A stretch of DNA of 64,000 nt. Source: Clostridium sp. 12(A). GTDB lineage: Bacteria > Bacillota > Clostridia > Lachnospirales > Lachnospiraceae. This document shows, in pieces, positions 32,859-62,896 of this stretch. Position 1 is the stretch's first letter. The number at the start of each line of letters is the position of its first letter. Both the position numbers and the translations under genes were made by a program. The DNA is taken from the NCBI GenBank assembly GCA_000526575.1, contig JAGI01000002.1, positions 744,001 through 808,000 on the forward strand, written 5' to 3'. The notes under the pieces were generated by a model. The model saw only the letters and a program-made list of their open reading frames with translations. It was not told the DNA's origin and made no database searches.

Positions 32859-33602
32859 ATGCAGCTTTATCCAGCGATTGATTTAAAAAACGGGCAGTGC
32901 GTCCGCTTAAGACAGGGCGAATTTAAGGATATAACAGTATATTCTGACAGACCAGAAGAGATTGCTGCGAAATGGCAGTCAAAGGGAGCTACCTTTCTCC
33001 ATCTGGTGGACTTAGACGGTGCTCTGGCTGGTCATTCAGTGAACAAAGAGGTTGTGAAGAAGATTGCGGCGGAAGTTTCTATCCCTGTTCAGATGGGCGG
33101 CGGCATCCGAAAGGAAGAAGATATTGAGTTTATTCTGTCTCTTGGGGTAAGCCGTGTCATTATCGGAACAAAAGCTGCAGAAAATCCGGAATTTATTCGG
33201 CAAATGGTGAATAAATTTGGACAGGAGCGTATTGTAGCAGGAATCGATGCAAAAAATGGCATGGTTGCTGTAGAAGGCTGGGAGAAAATCAGCAATCTTT
33301 CCGCATCCCAGCTTGCAAACCAAATGAAAGAATACGGAATTCGTCATGTGGTGTATACAGATATCGCCAGAGATGGAATGCTGTCAGGTCCTAATGTGGA
33401 ATACACCAGGAAATTGACGGAAGAAACAGGTCTTGACATTATCGCTTCCGGTGGAATGTCTTCCATGGAAGATTTAGAGGAACTATACCATGCAGGCATA
33501 TGTGGTGCAATTATCGGAAAAGCTCTGTATGAGAACAGAATTGATTTAAAAGAAGCTATTGTTGCTTTTGAAGGACAGGACCATCAGGGGAGGAAAAGTT
33601 GA
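32859..33602 (+). CDS. hisA: ProFAR isomerase HisA
   Basis: A 247-residue beta/alpha barrel isomerase (phosphoribosylformimino-5-aminoimidazole carboxamide ribotide isomerase). It opens [17 protein letters not shown] with catalytic Asp8; the second catalytic Asp lies in [14 protein letters not shown]; the phosphate-binding [12 protein letters not shown] and [10 protein letters not shown] follow. hisH, which normally sits before hisA, is missing: hisB ends 12 bases upstream. It overlaps the following gene by one base. Confidence 0.96.
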
Positions 33603-34882
33603 TGGAATGCAAAAAACTGATTGCAGGTTTTGGCATACGGCAGGGCAAGGCGTGCAGGCTTGATGATTTACAGGTCTGTTATAAGGAAGACCTGCTTTCT
33701 TTGGCCCGTTATTTTGGAGACAGCGGGGCAGATGAACTATTTATTTATGATTTATCGGATACGGAAGAAGACCATGAAAAAACCATTGGTCTTATCAAAG
33801 AGATCGTCAGGCTTTCGGATATCCCTGTCATTGCCGGAGGCAGAGTAAAGCGGCTGGAAGATGTAAAAAAATATCTTTATGCAGGATCAAAAGCTGCATT
33901 TCTGGATGCTGGAGATGATGATAATGTGGATCTTATGAAAGAAGCCGCCGACCGGTTTGGAGACGATAAAATCTATGCTTATTTACCAGATTCCTCCTAT
34001 CTTAACCGAACCAGGGAATATGCTCAGCTTGGAGCCTCGGTCATGATACTTGGTGATCCAGACATTACAGAAGAGATTCTTTTCGCAATTTCCTCTTGTG
34101 AGGAACATTTTCTGCTGACTGGTTCTGATGAAAATATGCTTTCAGATTCCTTAAAGCTGGATCTGGTGGATGGCTTTATCGCCTGTCTGTTAGAAGATTC
34201 CGTATTCATGGATTTAAAACAGGAATTAAAGTCCCAGGGCATTGGAGTAGATACCTTTGAAAGCAGCGTGGATTTTTCCCAGTTTAAGTTAAATTCCGAT
34301 GGCCTGATTCCGGTGGTAGTTCAGGAATACCGCACTGGAGAAGTTCTCATGCTGGCGTATATGAATGAGGAAGCCTTTAAGGAAACATTAAAATCCGGCT
34401 GTATGACATATTATAGCCGCAGCCGTCAAAGTCTCTGGAAAAAAGGAGAGACTTCCGGCCATTTCCAATATGTAAAGGCTTTATCTCTTGATTGTGATAA
34501 TGATACGCTGCTTGCAAAAGTCAATCAGATCGGGGCTGCCTGCCATACAGGAGAGCAAAGCTGTTTCCACCAGAGCCTGATTAAAAAAGAATTCAAGGAC
34601 TCCAATCCACTTAAAGTATTCGAAGACGTCTTTCAGGTGATTCTCGATAGAAAAATCAACCCCAAAGAAGGCTCCTATACCAATTACCTCTTTGATAAGG
34701 GACTGGATAAAATACTGAAAAAGCTGGGAGAAGAGTCGACAGAAATTATCATTGCTGCTAAAAACCCTAACCCGGAAGAGGTAAAATACGAAATTTCAGA
34801 TTTTCTTTATCATATGATGGTTCTAATGGCTCAAAAAGGTGTTACCTGGGAAGACATAACCAGGGAACTGGCTAATCGTTAG
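33602..34882 (+). CDS. hisIE: Three-domain protein: degenerate HisF-like barrel fused to HisI-HisE
   Basis: A 426-residue protein. Residues about 230-325 are phosphoribosyl-AMP cyclohydrolase (HisI: metal motif DCDND at 297-301, with C314 and C321), and about 337-426 are phosphoribosyl-ATP pyrophosphatase (His[16 protein letters not shown]). Ordinary HisIE proteins are about 200-220 residues; here residues 1-220 add a barrel resembling HisF ([34 protein letters not shown]). Its N-terminus reads [11 protein letters not shown] where HisF has a CLDV-type catalytic Asp, so Gly replaces Asp11 and it is probably not an active cyclase. Start ATG 33602 follows GGGGAGG. HisI and HisE are firm; the barrel function is unknown. 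Confidence 0.9.
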
Positions 34883-50989: not shown

Positions 50990-52056
50990 GACAGGGAAAC
51001 GGTAAGAATTTAAGAGGAATCATGCTGTTTCCTGTACTGATTGCAGTCTTGCTGCTTTCTCTCCTGTTTGTGATATCCAAAGGCTCCACAGATATTTCCA
51101 TGTCTGTGGTCTACGGAATCTTAAATGACCAGGTCTTACATGGAGGTCGGGAATTAAAAGAGGGCTTATGGGGAAGGGCGGATTATCAGATCATCTGGAA
51201 TATCCGGCTTCCCAGAGTATTGTTTGGTATCTTATGCGGTGCCGGTCTTGGATTATGCGGTGCAGTGATGCAGGCTCTGGTTTTAAATCCCATTGCAGAC
51301 CCATATATTCTTGGCATCTCCTCAGGTGCATCTTCGGGGGCAGCCTGCGCGCTGCTTCTCCCGATTCCATTCTTCGGAGGCCAGTATCAGACTACAATCA
51401 TGGCTATGGCTGGCGCTTTGATATCCTCTGCTCTGGTGTACTTCATGGCGAAATTTGCTGGAGGGGGTAAGCTTCATCCGGTTACCTTATTGCTTTCCGG
51501 AACTGCAATCAATGCAGTAATGAGTGCTGTCACAGGTTTTTTGGTATTTATTGCAAAAAGCTCTGAAAGCATTGCAGCTGTGTATAACTGGCAGATGGGA
51601 AGCCTGGCAGCTGCTCAGTGGTCCACACTGACCATTCCAGCTCTTGGCGTTTTTCTTGGTCTCATCGTTTGTATCCTTCAGTCAGGGAATTTAAATCTGA
51701 TGATGATGGGAGATGAGGATGCGGCAGCTCTTGGTCTGTCAGTAAAGCATGTTAGAGCTGGTATGTTTATTGTCTGCTCGATAATCGTTGCATCCCTGGT
51801 TTCTGTTACCGGCATCATTGGCTTTGTGGGTCTGGTGGTTCCACATGTGGTTCGTCTGATGATTCGCTCCAGCAATAATAAACTGGTGATTCCACTCAGT
51901 GCATTGTCAGGAGCCATTTATCTGATGTGGGCAGACAGCCTGGCCCGCAGCGCATTCCGGGCGGCAGAACTTCCGATAGGAATTATAACTGCTTTTGTTG
52001 GAGCGCCATTTTTCCTTTTTCTTATGATCCGGAAACATTACGGAGTTAGAGCGTAA
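50986..52056 (+). CDS. FecCD/BtuC-family ABC permease
   Basis: A 356-residue permease with about ten membrane segments. Family motifs are NIRLPRVLFGILCGAGLGLCG, NPIADPYILGISSGAS, GDEDAAALGLSV (coupling helix area) and IGFVGLVVPHVVRLM. It starts within the stop of the binding protein gene. It forms the membrane channel of the corrinoid importer with the ATPase encoded 18 bases downstream. Confidence 0.94.
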   Translation: MRQGNGKNLRGIMLFPVLIAVLLLSLLFVISKGSTDISMSVVYGILNDQVLHGGRELKEGLWGRADYQIIWNIRLPRVLFGILCGAGLGLCGAVMQALVLNPIADPYILGISSGASSGAACALLLPIPFFGGQYQTTIMAMAGALISSALVYFMAKFAGGGKLHPVTLLLSGTAINAVMSAVTGFLVFIAKSSESIAAVYNWQMGSLAAAQWSTLTIPALGVFLGLIVCILQSGNLNLMMMGDEDAAALGLSVKHVRAGMFIVCSIIVASLVSVTGIIGFVGLVVPHVVRLMIRSSNNKLVIPLSALSGAIYLMWADSLARSAFRAAELPIGIITAFVGAPFFLFLMIRKHYGVRA

Positions 52057-52074
52057 AGGAAGAAAAGGAGTATT

Positions 52075-52827
52075 ATGAAGATAGAATATCAAGATGTTTA
52101 TGTGTCTATAGGGAGGACCAGGATATTATATGGAGTAAATCTGACTGCTGAAAGCGGTAATATAACGGGAATTGTAGGCCCAAATGGCTGTGGGAAGTCA
52201 ACTCTCATAAAAACAACTCTGGGTCTTCATTCCATGAAAGCTGGAGATATTTTATTAGAGGGTTCTTCCCTGACAGGATTAAACAACAAGCAGCTGGCCC
52301 AGCGTTTCGCTTACGTGGGTCAGGAAAACAGCTGTATGTTTGATTTTACCGCATATGAAATCGTATCCATGGCCGTTCCTATCCGTGGGAGATTGAATAA
52401 ACGGGCGGAAAGAGCTCTCGTTATGAATGCACTGGAGCAGTTAGGCATTGTACACCTAAGGGACCGGAATATTCAGAATTTATCTGGTGGAGAGCGGAAA
52501 TTGGTCTTCATTGCAAGGGCATTTGCTCAGGGTGTGGATACGATTATTCTTGATGAACCAACAAATCACCTGGATATCAAACATCAGCTTTATATTTTAG
52601 ATATCTTAAAGCAGAGTAAAAAGACCATTCTTATTGTCTTACACGATTTAAGGCTGGCTGCGCATTATTGCGATACACTGTATTTAATGAAGCAGGGAAA
52701 CGTTGTTTGCGGAGGCAGGCCGTCAGAGGTCCTTCAAAAGAAAAGGGTACACCAGGTGTTTGGAGTAGAAGGCTTTGCATTAGAATTAGAGGATGGGGCT
52801 CTTGACTTTCACCTTAAGATGAATTAG
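52075..52827 (+). CDS. ABC transporter ATP-binding protein (BtuD/FepC-like)
   Basis: A 250-residue ATPase with Walker A GPNGCGKST near residue 35, the Q-loop YVGQENSCMFDF, signature LSGGERK, Walker B IILDEPTNHLD and the switch His in VLHDLRLAAHYCD. The length and motifs match the iron-chelate/cobalamin importer ATPases. It is last in the riboswitch-controlled operon, followed by a terminator at 52898. Confidence 0.95.
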   Translation: MKIEYQDVYVSIGRTRILYGVNLTAESGNITGIVGPNGCGKSTLIKTTLGLHSMKAGDILLEGSSLTGLNNKQLAQRFAYVGQENSCMFDFTAYEIVSMAVPIRGRLNKRAERALVMNALEQLGIVHLRDRNIQNLSGGERKLVFIARAFAQGVDTIILDEPTNHLDIKHQLYILDILKQSKKTILIVLHDLRLAAHYCDTLYLMKQGNVVCGGRPSEVLQKKRVHQVFGVEGFALELEDGALDFHLKMN

Positions 52828-52897
52828 CTCTTTTACAAGTATTTTATTAAATAAAGCTTTAATAAATCTATTATTTGCATATGAAATATATAAATCG

Positions 52898-52926
52898 CCG
52901 TCAAGATTATCTTGACGGTTTTTTGT
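52898..52926 (+). terminator. Terminator of the corrinoid uptake operon
   Basis: A perfect 9-bp stem CCGTCAAGA (52898-52906) / TCTTGACGG (52910-52918) with a 3-base loop, followed by six T. Confidence 0.93.
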
Positions 52927-52987
52927 TTTTTCAGAAATAGAATTTATTTGTGGAATCAATCTTATAAGTTAGCAAGGGAGTGATTTT

Positions 52988-53092
52988 ATGTTAATATTGC
53001 GAAATATGTTGGAATATATCGAATTGAATGTTGAAAATAATATTATTTTGCATATAACTGTCATTAGCTCAATAAAACTTTATTTTGATTAA
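52988..53092 (+). CDS. Possible 34-residue peptide upstream of the two-component system
   Basis: An ATG preceded by a strong AAGGGAGTGATTTT site opens a 34-residue frame beginning MLILRNMLEYIELN and ending SSIKLYFD. It has a hydrophobic middle (NIILHITVISS). No family is recognised. It lies between the terminator of the corrinoid operon and the LytTR regulator, in very AT-rich DNA. It could be a leader or signal peptide, or a chance frame; the ribosome site is the only support. Confidence 0.35.
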   Translation: MLILRNMLEYIELNVENNIILHITVISSIKLYFD

Positions 53093-53185
53093 AAATAGTA
53101 TTATAATATATTTAATGTAAAATACAAAATGAAAGTAATATTGCATTATCATAATATACACTCATTATAATAAAGGGGAATGAAT

Positions 53186-53896
53186 ATGAAAATACATATC
53201 GTTGTTTGTGATGATGAGGCAAGCGCTGTTAAATTAATTAAAGAAAGGTTATGTACCATTCTTGATCCACTGATTCAATATACTTGCTATGAATTTACCG
53301 ACCCAAGACATGTTATTAGTATGGCAAAGGATACTCCTATTGATTTGCTTTTGATAGACATTGAGATGCCTGATATAAAAGGGTTAGATGTAGTTAAGGA
53401 AGTAAGAATATATAATCATCAGTTGCTGGTCTTATTCATTACAAACATGGACATGTATGTATATGAATCATTTAAACTCCAGCCATTCAGATTTATCAGA
53501 AAATCTCATATGAATGAATTAAATGAAGCATTGAGCAGCGCTGTATCTATAATAAAGAATAATTTGGATATTTTTAACGTGCCAATTAATCTGGTTACGC
53601 ACAAGGAAGTGAAGATTCATGATATTATCTATTTCGAATCATTGCATAATAATGTAAAAATAGTCTTAAATGGAGATTCATTTGTATTTAGATCTACTTT
53701 AAAACTCATTGAAAAACAATTGGAAGGCAAGACATTCGTTCGAATACATAGCGGATTTTTGGTTAATTTGAAATATATCTATCTTATCAGGGGGTCTGCC
53801 GTAGAAATTAGTTTTAATGATAATATAATTTCTCTTCCGCTTAGCAGAAATCGTAGAAACAATTTAATTTCTGAATATAAAAGGAGTTTACGATAA
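53186..53896 (+). CDS. LytTR-family response regulator
   Basis: A 236-residue response regulator. The receiver domain (residues 1-120) has acidic D9/D10 and the phosphoacceptor D58 in LLLIDIEMP. A LytTR DNA-binding domain follows from about 130 (KIHDIIYFESLHNNVKIV, FVRIHSGFLVNLKYI, ISLPLSRNRR). Regulators of this type (AgrA-like) often control peptide and bacteriocin genes. ATG 53186 is spaced seven bases from GGGG; ATG 53180 is too close. It sits with a GHKL kinase just upstream of two precursor peptide genes, whose expression it probably controls. Confidence 0.94.
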   Translation: MKIHIVVCDDEASAVKLIKERLCTILDPLIQYTCYEFTDPRHVISMAKDTPIDLLLIDIEMPDIKGLDVVKEVRIYNHQLLVLFITNMDMYVYESFKLQPFRFIRKSHMNELNEALSSAVSIIKNNLDIFNVPINLVTHKEVKIHDIIYFESLHNNVKIVLNGDSFVFRSTLKLIEKQLEGKTFVRIHSGFLVNLKYIYLIRGSAVEISFNDNIISLPLSRNRRNNLISEYKRSLR

Positions 53897-53904
53897 AATT
53901 AATC

Positions 53905-55182
53905 ATGAGTATATATCAATTCAGCCTTATTATATTTGACTCTTTACTCGCGGTTTTCTTTTTACTGCGATATAATGGATATAAATGGAATGACAAGCCT
54001 CAATTTTTAATGTTGTTTCCAATATTGATAATGAACATTTGGTATTCTGACAGAAATGTTCATGTTCTGGCTGTCATAGGAAATATTTTTGTTTCTTATC
54101 TTTTAATGATTATATTGAAATTTGAAGGTAGAACAAAATTTGGTCTTCTTTGGTCCTGCATTCTTTATTATGGAACATTAATGCTATCAAACTCCATGGT
54201 CTCCGTTTTGTTTCTGTTACTTATGAATAAAAGTCTTGGTTTTTTCAAGATTCCTCATGTATTTGCTGTTTTACTATGTCTGATCTTAAAAAGCTATCAA
54301 TGGGGAATTATTAGATTTTATATTTTTTTAGAAGAGAGAAATATTACGTCTGAAAATGATAACATTCAGCCAATGATAAGTAACTCGATTTATAATATTG
54401 CTTTTATAGTTGTTATCTTATATGCAATCAATAATAATATTTTAGAGGAACCATATGGTTTCTTACTCCTTATTATTGGAATTGTGGTCAGTCAGGTTAT
54501 ATTCTTTTATATGTATGCTAAAATGAACAGTAAAAGCAGACTCTCTCATGTAAAAAATCTCCTTATGCAGATATATGAAGATGAGCGGTACTTAATAGGA
54601 AATAATCAACAAGTTGACAGAATGGCCCGAATTAATCATGATATTAAAAACCATTTAACTTATATTGCTTATAATTTAGATAATAAAAATTATGATAAGG
54701 CAAAAGAGTATATTGTAGAATTAATAAACAATGCGGGTTTAAATTTTAATTTTATAAAGCTTACCGATAACTCTCTCAATTTTATCATTAATCATAAACT
54801 CAATCAGGCGTATAAAAAAAATATAAAGATTTTTGCTCAGATAGAAGATTTAAAGAAACCTTGCTTAGAAGAATTTGATTTATGTATATTACTATGTAAT
54901 GTTCTTGATAACGCAATAGAAGCAGTAGAAGGGCAAGAAAAAAAACAGATTCATATTGAGATATTTAATCATGCTGGCTATCAGACCTATTTTATAAAAA
55001 ACACAATTGAAACCTCTATATTAGAAGTGAATTCTGATCTCATTACCACTAAATATCAAAAGAAAGATCATGGATATGGATTTCAACAGATAAATGATAT
55101 TATCAATAAATACCATGGACATATTGATATCTACGAACTAGAAAGATTCTTCTGCATTAAAATATTAATTCCTACCTCATAA
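53905..55182 (+). CDS. GHKL-domain sensor histidine kinase (AgrC-like)
   Basis: A 425-residue kinase. About six membrane segments occupy residues 1-205; the cytoplasmic part has the phosphoacceptor H245 in INHDIKNHLTYI, the N-box NVLDNAIEA (332-340) and the G-box HGYGFQQI near 389. This is the AgrC/ComD layout, sensing a peptide or membrane signal and phosphorylating the LytTR regulator. The start ATG 53905 lies eight bases after the regulator stop but the AAGGAG site is 18 bases away, so translation may depend on coupling. Confidence 0.93.
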   Translation: MSIYQFSLIIFDSLLAVFFLLRYNGYKWNDKPQFLMLFPILIMNIWYSDRNVHVLAVIGNIFVSYLLMIILKFEGRTKFGLLWSCILYYGTLMLSNSMVSVLFLLLMNKSLGFFKIPHVFAVLLCLILKSYQWGIIRFYIFLEERNITSENDNIQPMISNSIYNIAFIVVILYAINNNILEEPYGFLLLIIGIVVSQVIFFYMYAKMNSKSRLSHVKNLLMQIYEDERYLIGNNQQVDRMARINHDIKNHLTYIAYNLDNKNYDKAKEYIVELINNAGLNFNFIKLTDNSLNFIINHKLNQAYKKNIKIFAQIEDLKKPCLEEFDLCILLCNVLDNAIEAVEGQEKKQIHIEIFNHAGYQTYFIKNTIETSILEVNSDLITTKYQKKDHGYGFQQINDIINKYHGHIDIYELERFFCIKILIPTS

Positions 55183-55296
55183 AAAGTGAAATTAAATTAT
55201 TACCCGTCTATCACATTTCTATAGTTCATTTAACGTATCTTTTATGAATTTTTCTTATTAGATTCATTTTGTGCTTAGTATACAAACAAAAATGAG

Positions 55297-55355
55297 AAAT
55301 GATAGGAATAAGCCTTTTTAAAATAAAGGGCTTATTTCTAATGTCATTATTTTTT
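55297..55355 (+). terminator. Terminator after the histidine kinase gene
   Basis: AATAAGCC (55307-55314) pairs with GGCTTATT (55329-55336), extended outward by an imperfect AATGATA/TGTCATT, then TTTTTT at 55350-55355. It separates the regulatory genes from the precursor transcript. Confidence 0.8.
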
Positions 55356-55399
55356 AACTTTAATTTAAAGTAGCCATTACATAATATCCCGGAAATATA

Positions 55400-55570
55400 T
55401 CAAATATCCCAAAATATTGATTGCATTTCAAATATCTTTTATATTATATAATGATAATAATTCGTCAATGCTTCGCGACAGTATATGATAGAGCATAATC
55501 AAAACTCAGCTTATTATCCATTTAGATTGCAAAATATTGATATTAAACATTTATTTCAGATGTTTAATAT
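55400..55570 (+). promoter_or_regulatory. Control region of the precursor peptide genes
   Basis: Candidate promoter TTGATT (55417-55422), 17 bases, TATATT (55440-55445). Exact direct repeats flank it: CAAAATATTGAT at 55410-55421 and 55530-55541, and TCAAATATC at 55400-55408 and 55428-55436. In the leader a perfect 11-bp hairpin ATATTAAACAT (55540-55550) / ATGTTTAATAT (55560-55570) stands 33 bases before the first precursor. The rest of the 55183-55603 gap holds no gene. The repeats are candidate regulator sites; none matches a classic LytTR box. Confidence 0.5.
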
Positions 55571-55603
55571 AAACAACATTTATTATTGAAAGGTGGTGGA
55601 AAT

Positions 55604-55762
55604 ATGAACAAAAATCAAGTACAAACAAATGTAAAGCAAGGTTTTATCATTCCTGAGGATCGCCGTGTTCGTCTTCAGGTCAACAGTAAAAGCAGTACCA
55701 ACTGTAACCGTCCTGGTGGATTCTTATGGGGAGGTAATGGTCAGAGCCAATGTACCTGTTAA
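55604..55762 (+). CDS. RiPP precursor peptide 1 (52 residues, three Cys)
   Basis: A 52-residue peptide starting MNKNQVQTNVKQGF after a GAAAGGTGGTGG ribosome site. The N-terminal half is charged and leader-like (IPEDRRVRLQV); the C-terminal half is rich in Ser, Asn, Gly and Cys (NSKSSTNCNRPGGFLWGG, then GNGQSQCTC), with C34, C50 and C52. It shares 43 of 52 residues with the second peptide; residues 24-43 are identical. Position before a radical SAM/SPASM enzyme, protease and exporter makes it the likely substrate. I do not recognise the peptide family; thioether or other radical crosslinks are inferred. Confidence 0.88.
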   Translation: MNKNQVQTNVKQGFIIPEDRRVRLQVNSKSSTNCNRPGGFLWGGNGQSQCTC

Positions 55763-55825
55763 TTATTATTTGATTGGCCCAACAGGAAAGATATTGTTAA
55801 ATCAGCTGTGACTTTGCTATGGCAA

Positions 55826-55854
55826 TTGACGCATAATCTCAGCTTGTGTACAAA
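55826..55854 (+). promoter_or_regulatory. Possible promoter of the second precursor gene
   Basis: TTGACG (55826-55831), a 17-base spacer, TACAAA (55849-55854). The -10 is weak (four of six), so this is tentative; it would give the second peptide its own transcript start. Confidence 0.35.
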
Positions 55855-55950
55855 GGAAGATACATGTGTTATCAGAATATAGAAAACTGTGAATCTGATT
55901 GAATGAGAACATATATACATACTATTTAACTTTGAAAGGGTGGTGTGAAT

Positions 55951-56109
55951 ATGAACAAAAACCATGAGCAATCTAATGTTAAACAAGGTTTTACCATTCC
56001 TGAGGACAACCGTGTTAAGCTTCAGGTCAACAGTAAAAGCAGCACCAATTGCAACCGTCCCGGCGGCTTCTTGTGGGGGTCCAATGGTAAAAGCAATTGT
56101 ACCTGTTAA
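55951..56109 (+). CDS. RiPP precursor peptide 2 (52 residues, three Cys)
   Basis: A second 52-residue peptide starting MNKNHEQSNVKQGFT after GAAAGGGTGGTGTG. It differs from peptide 1 at nine positions: 5, 6, 8, 15, 20 and 23 in the leader-like half, and 44 (Gly to Ser), 47 (Gln to Lys) and 49 (Gln to Asn) near the C-terminus. C34, C50, C52 and the RPGGFLWG motif are kept. The pair probably arose by tandem duplication, and the third-region changes may give two related products. Two hairpins follow before the radical SAM gene. Confidence 0.88.
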   Translation: MNKNHEQSNVKQGFTIPEDNRVKLQVNSKSSTNCNRPGGFLWGSNGKSNCTC

Positions 56110-56110
56110 T

Positions 56111-56190
56111 AATTCCTGAGGCATTTAACAGGAATTAGATTACTTATATCGCTGCGGCTATGTTTTGATACTCAATGCATTGGCCGCAGC
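56111..56190 (+). terminator. Two stem-loops between precursor 2 and the radical SAM gene
   Basis: AATTCCTG (56111-56118) / CAGGAATT (56129-56136) and GCTGCGGC (56151-56158) / GCCGCAGC (56183-56190). Neither is followed by a long T-run. They probably act as partial terminators or mRNA processing/stabilising structures that keep precursor RNA more abundant than enzyme RNA. Confidence 0.55.
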
Positions 56191-56213
56191 TTGCTGTAGA
56201 AAGGAAACTATAT

Positions 56214-57551
56214 ATGTTATTAGAATATAATAATCAAATTCATTTTACCAGTAGATACAGTTCTATAAAAATTGATCATTTTAATTTGGTTCTTTTTCCT
56301 GAATTCAAGAATTATTTTGTTACGGATGATGAAGGAATGGATTGCTTTCAAAAGCTATATGACGGTATGAGTATTGGTGAAGCCTTTGAACATTACAGCA
56401 GCCAATTCATTGATTGTACGGAAGAAGAAATTCGTCAGAAATATCAAAAACTTCTTGGTGATATTGTACATGCCAATAAACATACTGAGCCCTTTGACAC
56501 TGCTGATGAAATCCTTGATATTAAATTTGATATGACATATAAATGCAACGCAGAGTGCGTTCATTGTTTTGCTACTGATTTCCCTGATATGACGAGCGCA
56601 GATACCAATACATTCTGCAGGGTTTTTGATGAGCTTCTCAATATTTTCCCGCATAAGCCTAAGGTGGCAATATCCGGTGGCGAACCGCTGTTAAATGCAG
56701 AATTATTAACGGATTTTGTCCGTTATATTAAGCCTAATACAGCAGGAATAACTCTTTTAACAAATGGATTTTTATTCAGTGACTGGATTGATAAAGATGA
56801 GGCTAAAATCAACTTTTTATTGGAAAATGTAAATGATTTTCAGATTAGTCTTGATGGCTTTACAGAAGAAATTTTTGATAAAGTTCGAGGTAAGGGCAAT
56901 TTTAAAAAGGTTATGAACACTTTGTATTATCTCAATAAAAAGGGAATCAGCCTTAATATGCATACCACAGTTACAAGGATTAATGAAAAAGACATAAGGG
57001 AGAACTTCATTCCCTTTTTAATCGAAAACCGCTCCTTAATAAATAATAGAAATCATTTTTCTTTTTCCATCGCCAGAGCTGTTGGCAGAGGAAAGGATCT
57101 GGCTGAACAGGGCCTTATCTGTAGTTACACGGATTTTGAAAAACTATTATTTGACGTACATACCCAGCTTATTAAAAATCATCTCTGTGATTCTGCGCCT
57201 ATGCCTATTACCTTCCGGGAAATATGCGGAATCGGAAAGCAGATAACCGTATCACCTGATGGCAGCTGCTATTTGTGCGGAATACCTACCTCAGAAATTC
57301 TTGGAAATGTTCTCACAGACGGGCATGAGGTAATCAAAAAGCGGACATTAAATACCAGAAATCTCTACCACCTGGACAAGTTTGAATTCTGTAAGGGCTG
57401 CGATGTCAGTGGTCTATGTATGGGAGGGTGCCGTGTTTATAACAAAACATTAAAAGGGGATTATTGTGCTCCTGCCTGTAACGATGATTATAAGGAATCC
57501 ATATATCGGATGCTAATAAGAGAATACGAAATAGGCATGGTCAATATATGA
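56214..57551 (+). CDS. Radical SAM/SPASM peptide maturase with PqqD-like N-terminal region
   Basis: A 445-residue enzyme. Residues about 20-90 look like a PqqD-type recognition element (LFPEFKNYFVTDDEG, an acidic helix) for binding a precursor leader. The radical SAM cluster is C111/C115/C118 (CNAECVHC), with SGGEP at 154-158. A SPASM domain holds nine Cys (C338, C352, C355, C393, C396, C402, C406, C418, C422), enough for two auxiliary 4Fe-4S clusters. Such enzymes form thioether or carbon-carbon crosslinks in RiPPs. ATG 56214 is well spaced from AAAGGAAA. It overlaps the next gene by four bases. Confidence 0.92.
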   Translation: MLLEYNNQIHFTSRYSSIKIDHFNLVLFPEFKNYFVTDDEGMDCFQKLYDGMSIGEAFEHYSSQFIDCTEEEIRQKYQKLLGDIVHANKHTEPFDTADEILDIKFDMTYKCNAECVHCFATDFPDMTSADTNTFCRVFDELLNIFPHKPKVAISGGEPLLNAELLTDFVRYIKPNTAGITLLTNGFLFSDWIDKDEAKINFLLENVNDFQISLDGFTEEIFDKVRGKGNFKKVMNTLYYLNKKGISLNMHTTVTRINEKDIRENFIPFLIENRSLINNRNHFSFSIARAVGRGKDLAEQGLICSYTDFEKLLFDVHTQLIKNHLCDSAPMPITFREICGIGKQITVSPDGSCYLCGIPTSEILGNVLTDGHEVIKKRTLNTRNLYHLDKFEFCKGCDVSGLCMGGCRVYNKTLKGDYCAPACNDDYKESIYRMLIREYEIGMVNI

Positions 57552-59047
57552 TAACCATATCGAAGCAATCTGAAAATATGCGTGTGGAGATTATGGAGTT
57601 TGATCGGGATGAATTTATCTTATGGAATGAGCAAACCAAATCTATTTATTATTTCATGCGCCGGCATCTTGACAATCATAACCAGACATTTAATTTATTC
57701 AGCAGATTATTTCGTAAAAACTCTTTACTTGCAGTATTGCTTATAGATGACAAAATAGAAGGACTGATTACATGGAAGAGAGTGAAACGGGCTGGTGACT
57801 GGCTGGTACATATTGATATTCTGATTATTTCAGATGAATTTCGGGGAAGCAAAAGGATGTTTTTCTTTATTGAACAGGCTTTTTTATATTTAAATTCCTG
57901 CTTTGAAACTCCAGACCAAGAAATTTTACTTATAGCGGAGACTAGATACAATTCTGTTTATAAGTATATTGATAAATTTTTCACTATATTGCCTGCGCCT
58001 GGATCTAATAGGGATTCCCAGACAGATCGTGATAAGTTAATTCATTTATTTTATCAGGACTTTGTCGAACATTATTTGCAGGGAATGTATTACAATGGGG
58101 ATACCCATACCATTCGTCTGAAAGGAGTAGAACCAGCGGATACAGATATCTATTCCGAGTTTGACTGTCTTGGTAAATTAAATATTACATTAGATGAATA
58201 CAGTGTAATATTCTGCCGAATTACCAAGGAACAGATCAATAAAATCAAAAGGTTTCATGAAGTAGAAGTTTGCAGTAAAGCAGAACTCTTAAAAAATTGT
58301 CTTCTTCTGAATCAGGTCAATAAGGATGGCCCGGGAAGAAATAAACAAACGAAAGTGGCTATTATAGATACTGGAATAAGTCAGAATAGAAAAGTAAATC
58401 TTATAGGTGGAGTTCATGTTTTTTATGAAAATGGGAGTGTAAAAACAGATAATGATTTTTATTCCAATGAAGAACATGGAAACCTGGCAGTAAGAATCAT
58501 AGAAAGCATATATCCTGATGCGGAATTTTTTATTGTAAGAGCTCTCTCAGGCAGAGACTGCAGATGTGAAAATATGATTAAAGGCATATATTTAGCAGCT
58601 GATTCTGGTGCAAATGTTATTTCCATTGGCGGTGCAACCTTATCACAGGATTTTAAAGATGATTTGCAGAATGCGTGTGACTATGCGGTATCAAAAGGTT
58701 GTATTATCATAGCTCCCCGGGATATTGAAACGACAAAGGAATGCTATCCATTTTCTTTTTCTAATGTTTTAGGTATCGGAATTACTTCTATTTATAATAT
58801 GATATTATTGGACAGAACTTTTAATATAGTAAAGGCAACTCCAGAATGGATTGATTATGATGATGATTCTGACAGGTTGATAGGAAATGTTTCTCTTGGT
58901 TCCAGCGTTGCAAACTATATTATTACAGCCTTGGTCGCAAAGCTGTGGAAGACTTATTCCTTAACTGGTTATGAGGATCTATGGAATCAACTGGAGAAAA
59001 TCGGAATGCCAGCGGAAGAAATTGAACATTATTTATTTGATGAGTGA
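57548..59047 (+). CDS. GNAT-like domain fused to an S8 subtilase, cytoplasmic
   Basis: A 499-residue protein with no signal peptide. Residues about 60-150 look like a GNAT acyltransferase fold (LLIDDKIEGLITW, HIDILIISDEFRGSKRMFFF). Residues about 265-470 form a subtilase: D274 in AIIDTGIS, H310 in EEHGNLAVRI, and Ser453 in LGSSVANYI. Where subtilisin has the oxyanion Asn (AAGN), this has APRD, so Asp392 probably takes its place. Position directly after the maturase, with overlapping ATGA, suggests it removes the precursor leader in the cytoplasm. The GNAT-like role is unknown, and could be structural. Confidence 0.82.
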   Translation: MITISKQSENMRVEIMEFDRDEFILWNEQTKSIYYFMRRHLDNHNQTFNLFSRLFRKNSLLAVLLIDDKIEGLITWKRVKRAGDWLVHIDILIISDEFRGSKRMFFFIEQAFLYLNSCFETPDQEILLIAETRYNSVYKYIDKFFTILPAPGSNRDSQTDRDKLIHLFYQDFVEHYLQGMYYNGDTHTIRLKGVEPADTDIYSEFDCLGKLNITLDEYSVIFCRITKEQINKIKRFHEVEVCSKAELLKNCLLLNQVNKDGPGRNKQTKVAIIDTGISQNRKVNLIGGVHVFYENGSVKTDNDFYSNEEHGNLAVRIIESIYPDAEFFIVRALSGRDCRCENMIKGIYLAADSGANVISIGGATLSQDFKDDLQNACDYAVSKGCIIIAPRDIETTKECYPFSFSNVLGIGITSIYNMILLDRTFNIVKATPEWIDYDDDSDRLIGNVSLGSSVANYIITALVAKLWKTYSLTGYEDLWNQLEKIGMPAEEIEHYLFDE

Positions 59048-59086
59048 CGAGCTTATCAGAGGCAGGTTTATACAAGGAGGTAGCAG

Positions 59087-60847
59087 TTGAAAGAATATTG
59101 GATCAGATTTAGGGAAGGCGTTATGGCAATTAAGAGTATCAGATACTTCTTACCATCCAGAAAACTTGTCATATTCGCCATCCTTGCTGCCTTGTTTGAA
59201 ATTGTGGCTACTGTTGTAACACCAGTAGCTGTCATGGATATAATTGACAACCCTCTTATGGAAGTTCATTTGAGCATATTCAAGTATTTGCCTGTTCTTA
59301 CGATCTTATTTATAAAACTGCTTATCTCATCTTTTCACTATCTCATGCTTTCCAATCTGGCCGCGGGTCTGTTAAAAAATCTGCGGCTTAAAATCTGGGA
59401 AAAAATATTACGGCTTCCGATTTCCTTTTATGATTCTGTCAGCAATGGTGAAACCATGAGCCGGTTAACGAATGATGCTATAGTTATTAAAGATTTTTTT
59501 ACTACTGAGACATTTTCCGTTATTTCAGGAAGCATTTACCTTGTGATTATTGGAGCAATTATTTTTATTATTGATTGGAAGATATCATTGTTAATTATTT
59601 TCGCAATTCCTGCGACGCTTTTATTGATTTCCTTTATTGCCCGACGAGAATATGATATATCTCAATCCATACAAAGAGAAACGGAAGAATTTCAGAATAG
59701 GATTAATCAGGTTCTCTATGAAATCAGAACGATTAAATCCAGCCAGGCAGAGGAGTATGAAAGTATTCAGGGCCAAAAAATTATCAGAAATTTATTCCGC
59801 CTCAGCAGTATGGAGAACAAAATATTTGCCTTGATTCAGCCTTGCGCAAACATCTTACTTATGCTATTGTTCTTGGTTATCTTTGGGTACTGCAGTATTA
59901 GAGTTTCTCAAGGAAGCTTATCAGCCGGTCAGTTTGTGGCTGTCATATTCTATCTTTTTGAATTGACTGGCCCAGTCACTATCTTTGGAAGCTTCTCTGC
60001 AAAGCTTCTTAAATTTATTGTATCAGCCGGAAGGATTAACCAGCTTTTTGCAGAGGAAGAAGAACCTGGGATTTCAGGAAAACTGTCAGCAAGCCTTTTA
60101 CCGCCTCAGGATATAGAAGTGCAGGGTTTGAACTTTGGGTATCAAAATAACAGAATGATACTTCAATCTGTTGATTTTAGGATTCAAAAAGGATCAGTTA
60201 CTGCAATTATTGGTGAAAGTGGTGTGGGAAAGACTACTTTTTTTCTTTTATTAGAAAGGTTTTATCTTCCCTCCTCCGGGAATATCTGTTATGGGGGTGT
60301 GCCTATTCAGGACTATGATCTTTATGAGTGGAGAAATAAGATCGCATATGTCTCTCAAGAGGCCCCATTAATGCAAGGGACTATTCATGATAATCTAACT
60401 TATGGAATTGAAGACTATGACAATGAAGAGCTTACAAAAGCCTTATTGGATGTTGGATTGCTTGAATTTATCGAAAAGCTTCCAAAAGGAATACATACAA
60501 AAGTAGGGGAACGGGGAACAAACCTGTCAGGAGGACAGCGGCAAAGAATTGTAATAGCCAGGGCGCTCATAAGAAAACCAGAAATCCTTCTCTTAGACGA
60601 GGCCACATCCCATCTTGACAGTACTTCCGAATACCTGGTTCAGAACTCTTTAAACAAGCTGATGAAAGGACGAACAACAATAATAATCGCTCACCGTTTA
60701 TCAACTATTGAAAACTCAGACCAAATCATTATTTTAAAGGATGGAAAAACCGCTGGAATCGGATACCATAGAGAGCTAATGGAGAATAATAGATTATACC
60801 GCTCTTTAGTGTCAAAACAGCAAATTTATGAAAGTCCATTTGCTTAA
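59087..60847 (+). CDS. ABC exporter (fused permease-ATPase) of the peptide cluster
   Basis: A 586-residue half-transporter. The N-terminal membrane domain has about six segments (residues about 25-310). The C-terminal ATPase carries Walker A GESGVGKTT, signature LSGGQRQR, Walker B LLLDEATS and switch His in IIAHRLST. There is no N-terminal C39 peptidase domain, so cleavage must be done elsewhere, consistent with the neighbouring subtilase. TTG 59087 follows AAGGAGGTAGCAG. It is the last gene of the peptide operon and most likely exports the mature peptides. Confidence 0.92.
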   Translation: MKEYWIRFREGVMAIKSIRYFLPSRKLVIFAILAALFEIVATVVTPVAVMDIIDNPLMEVHLSIFKYLPVLTILFIKLLISSFHYLMLSNLAAGLLKNLRLKIWEKILRLPISFYDSVSNGETMSRLTNDAIVIKDFFTTETFSVISGSIYLVIIGAIIFIIDWKISLLIIFAIPATLLLISFIARREYDISQSIQRETEEFQNRINQVLYEIRTIKSSQAEEYESIQGQKIIRNLFRLSSMENKIFALIQPCANILLMLLFLVIFGYCSIRVSQGSLSAGQFVAVIFYLFELTGPVTIFGSFSAKLLKFIVSAGRINQLFAEEEEPGISGKLSASLLPPQDIEVQGLNFGYQNNRMILQSVDFRIQKGSVTAIIGESGVGKTTFFLLLERFYLPSSGNICYGGVPIQDYDLYEWRNKIAYVSQEAPLMQGTIHDNLTYGIEDYDNEELTKALLDVGLLEFIEKLPKGIHTKVGERGTNLSGGQRQRIVIARALIRKPEILLLDEATSHLDSTSEYLVQNSLNKLMKGRTTIIIAHRLSTIENSDQIIILKDGKTAGIGYHRELMENNRLYRSLVSKQQIYESPFA

Positions 60848-61030
60848 TTGCCAATTTTTAAATCATGTTGCCTAATGCAGAAAAATCCTATATAATTATG
60901 CGTAGTGTTGAATGCTATTTATGGAAGCAAATGGCTATCAGAGAATGCATTGCATAAATCACCTTCAATATTTTATGCAACACAATCAATTATAAAATGT
61001 GATTGATTCACATGTAAAAAAGGAATAGGC
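60848..61030. other. Intergenic end of the peptide island
   Basis: A 183-base AT-rich gap between the exporter gene and the housekeeping radical SAM gene. Repeated TGCATTGCATAAAT-like and ATGCAACACAATCAATT segments are seen, but no clear terminator or promoter. It marks the right boundary of the AT-rich region. Confidence 0.4.
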
Positions 61031-62896
61031 ATGAGAAAATTAGCTTTAAGTGATGAAATTTTAATGAAAATTGAAAAACCTGCCCGTTATATCGGTAACG
61101 AGGTAAATATGGCCAGGAAGGATCCGAACGAAGTGGATATCCGCTTTGCCATGTGTTTCCCCGACGTATATGAGATTGGTATGTCCCATCTTGGAATGCA
61201 GATTTTATACGATATGTTTAACCGCAGAGATGATATTTACTGTGAACGCATCTATTCTCCATGGACCGATTTGGACAAGATTATGAGGGAAGAAAACATC
61301 CCTCTTTTTGCGCTGGAATCACAGGACCCTATTAAAGAATTTGACTTTATCGGAATCACCTTGCAATATGAGATGTGCTATACTAATATCTTGCAGATTC
61401 TCGACTTAGGCAAGATTCCGTTCCATGCCGAGGACAGGACAGAGGAAGACCCTATCCTGATCGGTGGTGGACCATGCGCTTATAATCCAGAGCCTCTGGC
61501 TCCATTCTTTGATTTGTTTTATATCGGAGAAGGAGAAACGGTCTACTTTGAATTAATGGACCGCTATAAGGAAAATAAGAAAAATGGCGGAACCCGTAAG
61601 GAATTCCTTCAGATGGCTGCAGAAATCGAAGGAATTTACGTTCCTGCCTTTTATGATGTTACTTATAAAGAAGACGGAACCATCGAAAGCATGAAACCCA
61701 ACAATCCTCATGCAAAGGAAATGGTGACCAAGCAGATCGTCACCAACATGGATGATGCTTATTTTATTGAAAAGCCTGTGGTACCATTTATCAAAGCCAC
61801 CCAGGACCGGGTTGTTTTAGAGATACAAAGAGGCTGTATTCGTGGATGCCGTTTCTGCCAGGCCGGCAATGTATACCGTCCTTCCAGAGAACACAGTCTT
61901 GATTATTTGAAAGATTACGCCCATAAGCTTTTAAAAAGCACCGGACATGAAGAGATATCCTTAAGCTCTTTAAGCTCCAGTGATTATTCTCAGTTAGAAG
62001 GAATCGTGAATTTTCTGATTGATGAATTTAAGGGAAAAGGGGTAAATATTTCCCTTCCATCCCTTCGTATTGATGCATTCTCCCTGGATGTAATGAGTAA
62101 AGTTCAGGATATTAAAAAGAGCAGTCTGACCTTTGCACCGGAAGCAGGTTCCCAGAGGCTTCGTGATGTTATTAACAAAGGACTTTCAGAGGAAATCATA
62201 TTAAAGGGAGCCAGTGACGCATTCCGCGGAGGCTGGAACCGGGTCAAGCTTTATTTTATGCTTGGTCTGCCAACAGAGACGGTAGAGGACATGGAAGGAA
62301 TTGCGGAGCTTTCTGAAAAGGTTGCAGAAGCTTATTACGAGATTCCAAAAGATCAGCGAAACGGAAAAGTACAGGTCGTGGCAAGCTCCTCCTTTTTTGT
62401 TCCAAAGCCATTTACCCCATTCCAATGGGCAAAAATGTGCACCAAGGAAGAGTTTTTAGAGAGAGCTTACATCGTGAAAGACAAATTCCGTGAAATGTTG
62501 AACCGAAAGAGCTTAAAATACAATTACCATGAGGCAGATTTAACCGTTTTAGAAGGCGTGCTTGCAAGAGGCGATAGAAAGATATCGGCTCTCATTGAGG
62601 AGGTCTACAAAAACGGGGCAATTTATGATTCCTGGTCAGAGCATTTTAAAAATGATATCTGGATGAAGGCATTTGAGACCTGTGGCATTGATCCTGACTT
62701 TTATACCATAAGAGAACGTGATCTTGATGAAGTATTTCCATGGGATTTTATTAATGCAGGCGTAACCAAAGAGTTTTTAAAGAGAGAGTGGCAGAATGCC
62801 ATCGGCGAAAAAGTAACTCCAAACTGCCGTCAGCAATGTACAGGCTGTGGAGCCATGAGTTTCAAAGGAGGAATCTGCTATGAAGGTAAGAATTAA
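61031..62896 (+). CDS. TIGR03960-family B12-binding-like radical SAM protein
   Basis: A 621-residue radical SAM protein. An N-terminal B12-binding-like region (FAMCFPDVYEIGMSHLGMQILYD) precedes the cluster motif QRGCIRGCRFCQAG near residue 277, then SLPSLRIDAFS and the C-terminal CTGCGAMSFKG. In Lachnospiraceae this is constantly followed by a DUF2344 protein and RNase G, as here. Its substrate is unknown; linkage to RNA metabolism is inferred. The next gene overlaps its 3' end by 17 bases. Confidence 0.93.
   Translation: MRKLALSDEILMKIEKPARYIGNEVNMARKDPNEVDIRFAMCFPDVYEIGMSHLGMQILYDMFNRRDDIYCERIYSPWTDLDKIMREENIPLFALESQDPIKEFDFIGITLQYEMCYTNILQILDLGKIPFHAEDRTEEDPILIGGGPCAYNPEPLAPFFDLFYIGEGETVYFELMDRYKENKKNGGTRKEFLQMAAEIEGIYVPAFYDVTYKEDGTIESMKPNNPHAKEMVTKQIVTNMDDAYFIEKPVVPFIKATQDRVVLEIQRGCIRGCRFCQAGNVYRPSREHSLDYLKDYAHKLLKSTGHEEISLSSLSSSDYSQLEGIVNFLIDEFKGKGVNISLPSLRIDAFSLDVMSKVQDIKKSSLTFAPEAGSQRLRDVINKGLSEEIILKGASDAFRGGWNRVKLYFMLGLPTETVEDMEGIAELSEKVAEAYYEIPKDQRNGKVQVVASSSFFVPKPFTPFQWAKMCTKEEFLERAYIVKDKFREMLNRKSLKYNYHEADLTVLEGVLARGDRKISALIEEVYKNGAIYDSWSEHFKNDIWMKAFETCGIDPDFYTIRERDLDEVFPWDFINAGVTKEFLKREWQNAIGEKVTPNCRQQCTGCGAMSFKGGICYEGKN

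Follow-up and report, generated by a model that had tools for sequence, protein, structure and literature searches.

Gene clusters in which a radical S-adenosylmethionine (SAM) enzyme accompanies an unknown precursor of a ribosomally synthesized and post-translationally modified peptide (RiPP) are found often. In the Qhp system, as set out in the available text of PMC7876137, QhpD forms thioethers from Cys to Asp or Glu, the subtilisin-like protease QhpE takes a 28-residue leader off the crosslinked protein, and QhpF exports the protein that QhpE has processed. Products of the streptosactin type can come under quorum control and target kin of the producer (PMC8172795, available part). SCIFF precursors carry six Cys per 45 residues (PMC8326336, available part), and SCIFF ranthipeptides have been reported in quorum sensing of clostridia (cited in the available part of PMC11316579). 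Here we compare with these systems an island in a 64,000-nucleotide stretch of Clostridium sp. 12(A) (contig JAGI01000002.1, positions 744,001 to 808,000 of the forward strand; hereafter the window), which is part of a 4.6-Mb genome (G000). The insertion is about 8.0 kb long and holds seven genes (53180-60847), all on the plus strand, as an initial annotation of this DNA had read them: a LytTR-type response regulator, a GHKL sensor kinase, two 52-residue Cys peptides (A1 and A2), a radical SAM maturase, an S8 (subtilisin) protein, and an ATP-binding cassette (ABC) exporter. The same block is present in two other genomes, G321 from the same species and G691 from the same genus. The island is a coherent and rare RiPP locus, with a precursor family that is not in the libraries we used and an unusual S8 protein.

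The gene order radical SAM, S8, ABC supplies counterparts of the QhpD, QhpE, and QhpF functions, and with it the implied sequence of events is the same: modification by the radical SAM enzyme, removal of the leader by an S8 protein in the cytosol, and ABC export. Unlike Qhp, whose product is a 9-kDa enzyme subunit, the island would make a short peptide, and its S8 protein carries an additional domain at the N-terminus and lies far under the cut-off of the QhpE model (NF049966; 54.1 of 165 bits), which is its top NCBIfam model. With the streptosactin system GggA/GggB (StsB) the island shares a radical SAM/SPASM maturase, a small Cys precursor, and a cluster that includes a protease and regulators (PMC8172795, same part); it differs in its core, in its LytTR/GHKL pair and S8-type protein, and in a score of 77.5 of 625 bits against the StsB model (NF045574). 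From CteB and the SCIFF ranthipeptides it is set apart by having three Cys per precursor rather than six. Because the radical SAM, S8, and ABC proteins have these counterparts, QhpE is the top model for the S8 protein, and no leader peptidase domain was found in the exporter, we propose a regulated, Qhp-like RiPP pathway in which crosslinking, cytosolic S8 leader removal, and ABC export occur in that order, and we regard this as the probable reading. The GHKL kinase and LytTR regulator would sense a peptide signal outside the cell, perhaps the pathway's own product, and activate the precursor operon; the N-terminal RiPP recognition element (RRE) of the maturase would bind the conserved leader (about residues 10-26, VKQGFxIPEDxRVxLQV); the maturase would crosslink the C-terminal core, which spans about residues 27-52 and contains Cys34, Cys50, and Cys52, and would most likely do so through Cys thioethers; the S8 protein would trim the leader in the cytosol once the core is modified; and the ABC exporter would then secrete the product. 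If this is right, the island brings to the radical SAM peptides a precursor family that the searched libraries do not model, along with a leader peptidase that works in the cytosol and carries an unusual additional domain, in a compact transferable cassette whose crosslink chemistry, protease order, and possible self-signalling are separately testable.

The precursors A1 (55604..55762) and A2 (55951..56109), both on the plus strand, lie where two near-identical Cys peptides had been described and are 83% identical to each other. Their 30 base differences fall 6, 5, and 19 at codon positions 1, 2, and 3, and the ratio of non-synonymous to synonymous rates (dN/dS) between the paralogues is 0.118 overall, 0.244 for residues 1-26, and 0.046 for residues 27-52; because the differences concentrate at the third codon position and the ratio is low, A1 and A2 are real genes rather than chance frames. 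Cys34, Cys50, Cys52, and the motif RPGGFLWG are kept in all four precursor sequences from the two species, among them the G691 orthologues of A1 (90% identical) and A2 (dN/dS 0.047). Positions 44, 47, and 49 distinguish A1 from A2 consistently in each species, and the duplication therefore predates the species split, with both copies retained. NCBIfam release 20.0 has no family for either precursor at E≤1, and Pfam gives nothing for A2 and for A1 one match to an unrelated domain of unknown function (E 0.29), which we take as chance. Judged by their sequences, A1 and A2 appear to be a new precursor family without a model in these libraries, in keeping with the suggestion that the precursors stand outside known families. 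The Clo7bot and SCIFF precursor families were considered and rejected, as neither gives a precursor match in NCBIfam; the six Cys of SCIFF are not there.

Maturase and precursors occur together. Among 25 genomes of the genus, the maturase is present in three at ≥97% identity (97% in G691), six more having only matches of 25-30%; the precursors are found in three at E<1e-36, and 14 others give weak matches (E 0.03-0.93). All three maturase-bearing genomes have both precursors, and the other 22 have neither. In wider samples the maturase was found in 3 of 397 family genomes (its own, one of the same species, and one 27% match) and, at E≤1e-30, in 1 of 391 class genomes, its own. The S8 protein including its N-terminal domain is confined, among 392 order genomes, to its own, the same species, and G691, with four others matching the S8 part alone; 22 of 398 phylum genomes match, all except its own through the S8 part alone. 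In a sample of 299 family genomes the precursor was found in its own genome, 29 others giving weak matches (E 0.0015-0.1), taken as chance, and 14 weak precursor loci checked with 1.5 kb of flank on each side include none with a maturase match and one with a generic ABC match. Plasmids yielded no A2 or S8 match and only distant maturase matches (60 records below 60% identity), and phages no S8 match. In viral contigs, neither the maturase nor the precursor alignment nor an alignment of two maturase rows picked up a relative, and a broad maturase alignment gave 20, which are 21-41% identical over the best segment. A scan of genome contigs, which picked up generic radical SAM patterns, found at least 587 stretches and at least 396 relatives, the best 80 of which, no fair census, are all at most 34% identical. 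Since these samples cover a fraction of existing genomes, we call the locus rare rather than unique. Six of the seven island genes are under purifying selection, with dN/dS against G691 of 0.068 for the maturase, 0.077 for the exporter, 0.231 for the regulator, and 0.235 for the kinase gene; the seventh, A1, has too few changes. The initial annotation's proposal of a single RiPP pathway is thus well supported, by the gene set in three genomes, purifying selection, precursor-maturase co-occurrence, and a predicted RRE.

The maturase (56214..57551, plus strand) has the order RRE, radical SAM domain, SPASM-like domain, the RRE occupying about 56214-56483. Its radical SAM domain scores 67.8 bits in Pfam. 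The open frame runs from 56175 to 57551 (458 residues), and the ATG at 56214 is the likelier start because the upstream ATG sits in a strong hairpin and AAGGA precedes 56214. A PqqD-like N-terminal region had been claimed; Pfam finds no PqqD match there, and the predicted structure shows the RRE arrangement of three strands (residues 16-20, 23-28, and 33-38) and three helices (39-49, 54-62, and 70-87), modelled at a block predicted local distance difference test (pLDDT) score of 86-96 over residues 11-90, so an N-terminal RRE fold is predicted. The exporter (59087..60847, plus strand) is of the ABC type, as had been read, and MsbA-like, with ABC_membrane and ABC_tran both above the Pfam gathering threshold; Pfam finds no C39 peptidase domain in it, and double-glycine export, with RPGG preceding FLWG, was rejected as the main route on that ground.

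Several observations weigh against the proposed pathway. The Pfam SPASM match of the maturase is below gathering (15.6 against 21.5 bits). The fold match that ranks first is the thioether-forming maturase CteB, in an alignment that spans domains at a root-mean-square deviation of 6.5, and a common fold reveals no chemistry. The best of the NCBIfam models, mycofactocin MftC, scores 89.2 bits against a cut-off of 265, and because no listed model reaches its curated cut-off the chemistry is unreadable from family membership; filing the proteins under StsB, QhpE, MftC, or another listed model was rejected on the same ground. In its oxyanion-hole region the S8 domain has APRD, as opposed to AAAGN in thermitase, and protease activity is not assured given so unusual a region; the cytosolic placement of the S8 protein is predicted from hydropathy. 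Conservation is shallow, as G691 is the only informative divergence, and A1 has a dN/dS against G691 of 1.49, from one synonymous and six non-synonymous changes, too few for its constraint to be judged.

The LytTR-type regulator (53180..53896; Response_reg 48.3 bits and LytTR 59.2 bits, both above Pfam gathering) and the GHKL kinase (53905..55182; HATPase_c_5 78.5 bits, E 4e-22), both on the plus strand, are the two regulatory genes that had been named. By hydropathy the kinase has about six separate membrane segments, which makes it a multi-pass membrane sensor. Its adjacency to the precursors raises a doubtful, though not negligible, possibility that the peptide is purely a pheromone for this kinase and the island a signalling module without an antimicrobial product. 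Of the island parts measured, the sensor half shows the highest dN (0.089), with a dN/dS of 0.313 as against 0.16 in the kinase half, and the ranthipeptide reports cited in PMC11316579 (available part) point in the same direction; two precursors with kept core differences at positions 44, 47, and 49, however, fit a two-peptide product equally well. Given the streptosactin and ranthipeptide precedents (PMC8172795, PMC11316579; available parts), either role, quorum signal or action on kin, may apply to the product. A multi-pass GHKL kinase and a LytTR regulator, together with a pheromone gene, characterise peptide-pheromone two-component systems of the AgrC/ComD type. The island has the kinase and the regulator, but quorum control as such, which had been suggested earlier, remains conjectural: the listed open reading frames include none that was noticed to resemble agrB or agrD, and the tandem repeat next to a promoter-like site is no more than suggestive.

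Thioether formation by the maturase, as the proposed pathway has it, competes with an unlikely alternative in which the enzyme makes a C-C or C-O crosslink of the streptide or cyclophane kind within the invariant R-P-G-G-F-L-W-G, the Cys serving for disulfides or metal. All three Cys are equally invariant, which argues against this, as do the fold alignments: among the top matches, those with CteB (from residue 12) and TigE (from residue 2) include the RRE, whereas that with SuiB begins at residues 94-96. Among the best 25 of 71 matching NCBIfam models, moreover, only the sactipeptide maturase StsB has an alignment that extends into the N-terminal region (34-429 of the 458-residue frame).

The S8 protein (57548-59047, plus strand) reaches 23.0 bits in Pfam against a gathering threshold of 21.8, and hydropathy gives no membrane segment. 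Its S8 domain (58328..59047, plus strand) has an Asp-His-Ser triad, D274, H310, and S453, within a predicted subtilisin fold. The unusual oxyanion region and the merely 23-bit score would suit a protein whose active site is dead and which acts as scaffold or immunity factor in place of a leader peptidase, but this is improbable: the triad is kept in the window, in G691, and in a distant Tepidibacter S8 protein, dN/dS in the S8 half is 0.102, and the exporter has no detected C39 domain. A GNAT-subtilase fusion, as the protein had been described, is the most surprising piece of the island and the least secure; the subtilase half stands, and the GNAT half is not established. The N-terminal domain (57548..58087, plus strand; the first 180 residues) is GNAT-like only in its predicted strand-helix order, which fits what we take to be the GNAT order, in a model of low pLDDT (block values 33-52 over residues 1-120, lower beyond). 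Neither Pfam nor a PDB sequence search gives anything for it at E 10, and an hhalign profile comparison with GNAT scores 19.4 (probability 3%), ten controls scoring 9.6-13.8. The acyl-CoA loop, which we assume to be R-x-x-G-x-G/A, would read R99-G-S-K-R-M104, with both glycine positions missing. Structure searches for a GNAT fold return subtilases and similar proteases as the best 50 matches of each, because the S8 half fills the lists, and the open-access literature searched holds no relevant report of a GNAT-subtilase RiPP fusion. The domain is constrained and no obvious relic, given a dN/dS against G691 of 0.169 (linker 0.143). We consider it highly improbable that this protein cuts and caps, the subtilase half cutting the leader and a GNAT-like half acylating the new N-terminus, so that an N-capped, crosslinked two-peptide product would act as autoinducer through the adjacent kinase.

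The island may comprise two transcription units rather than one, since a strong hairpin and possible terminator lies downstream of the kinase gene, between the regulator genes and the precursors (55303..55340, plus strand; -19.5 kcal/mol, z -6.9); a T run begins about 10 bases past it, and a terminator scan does not list it. A second strong hairpin, which lacks a T run, separates A2 from the maturase (56151..56190, plus strand; -24.4 kcal/mol, z -4.7), is identical in G691, and is a possible attenuator or RNA-stability element. Given these two hairpins, the precursors may be transcribed from a separate promoter. Scanning gave a candidate promoter with a candidate regulator site at 55383..55445 (plus strand), where AATATCCC occurs twice with a 12-base spacer (55383-55410) ahead of TTGATT-17-TATATT (55417-55445). 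G691 preserves the two copies and the two hexamers unchanged, with indels in the sequence further upstream. The promoter scan found 50 sites, with 40.8 expected from shuffling, so a single promoter-like site means little; a rough hand estimate puts a chance repeat of AATATCCC in that stretch at about 1 in 7-8, so neither is the repeat evidence by itself, and near repeats there number 5 against a shuffle mean of 3.5. The AATATCCC-N12-AATATCCC layout resembles what we take LytTR sites to look like, and it could be chance. The agr-type LytTR consensus, as we presume it to be, has no match in five intergenic stretches.

The island had been placed at 52928..60847. The positions and strand of its parts hold, and the unit is slightly larger, about 52828..60865 (plus strand), lying between an ABC ATPase gene and a gene at 61031, as shown by empty sites in two genomes (G633 and G721), the two examined among the 22 of 25 genus genomes without the maturase. 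There the flanks adjoin, their aligned parts lying about 120 and 170 bp apart. With three of 25 genus genomes carrying the block and clean empty sites in the two examined, the data suggest a strain-level acquired trait. GC content is 28-36% in 2-kb windows over 52001-60000, against 37-45% elsewhere in the window, and a terminator-like hairpin with a 10-pair stem and a T run marks the left edge (52897..52919, plus strand). None of the seven genes is an integrase or transposase. Completeness, which had also been claimed, is not established, as no dedicated immunity gene was recognised in the island. The ABC ATPase gene at the left edge (52075-52827) is only 83.7% identical to its G691 counterpart (dS 0.80), and the genes on either side of it are 93-94% identical (dS about 0.2); because it is so much more diverged than its neighbours, a recombination tract at the insertion point is suggested.

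Related arrangements occur elsewhere. L085, a locus in a Tepidibacter metagenome-assembled genome, is the only S8-bearing locus from radical SAM searches outside the genus, among 153 loci. Like the island it has radical SAM genes, short Cys precursors, an S8 protein, and an ABC exporter, with agr-like genes nearby (by eye); it differs in an S8 protein without the N-terminal domain, in precursors that are unrelated by eye, and in having three radical SAM-like frames, two of them tested with Pfam. Between 5267 and 18279, read mostly by eye, it holds agr-like regulator genes, two short Cys-rich peptides that share the leader MLKIKKIQNKEEIEVLAQ, an S8 gene, and ABC transporters, and to that extent it is a further RiPP-like locus that combines radical SAM genes with a subtilase. 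In a genome of the same family (G278), a radical SAM gene at locus L005 (1432-3122) shares 24-27% identity with the maturase across most of its length, and a 52-residue frame ending in CYC lies upstream of it, possibly a separate RiPP locus. At L173 (10069-12597, in G1229), where no radical SAM gene was noticed in the part listed, a short S8 protein stands beside an MsbA-like ABC exporter, the same pairing as in the island. Elsewhere in the window, positions 33599-34882 look by eye like a fusion of a HisF-like domain with HisI-HisE in the histidine operon.

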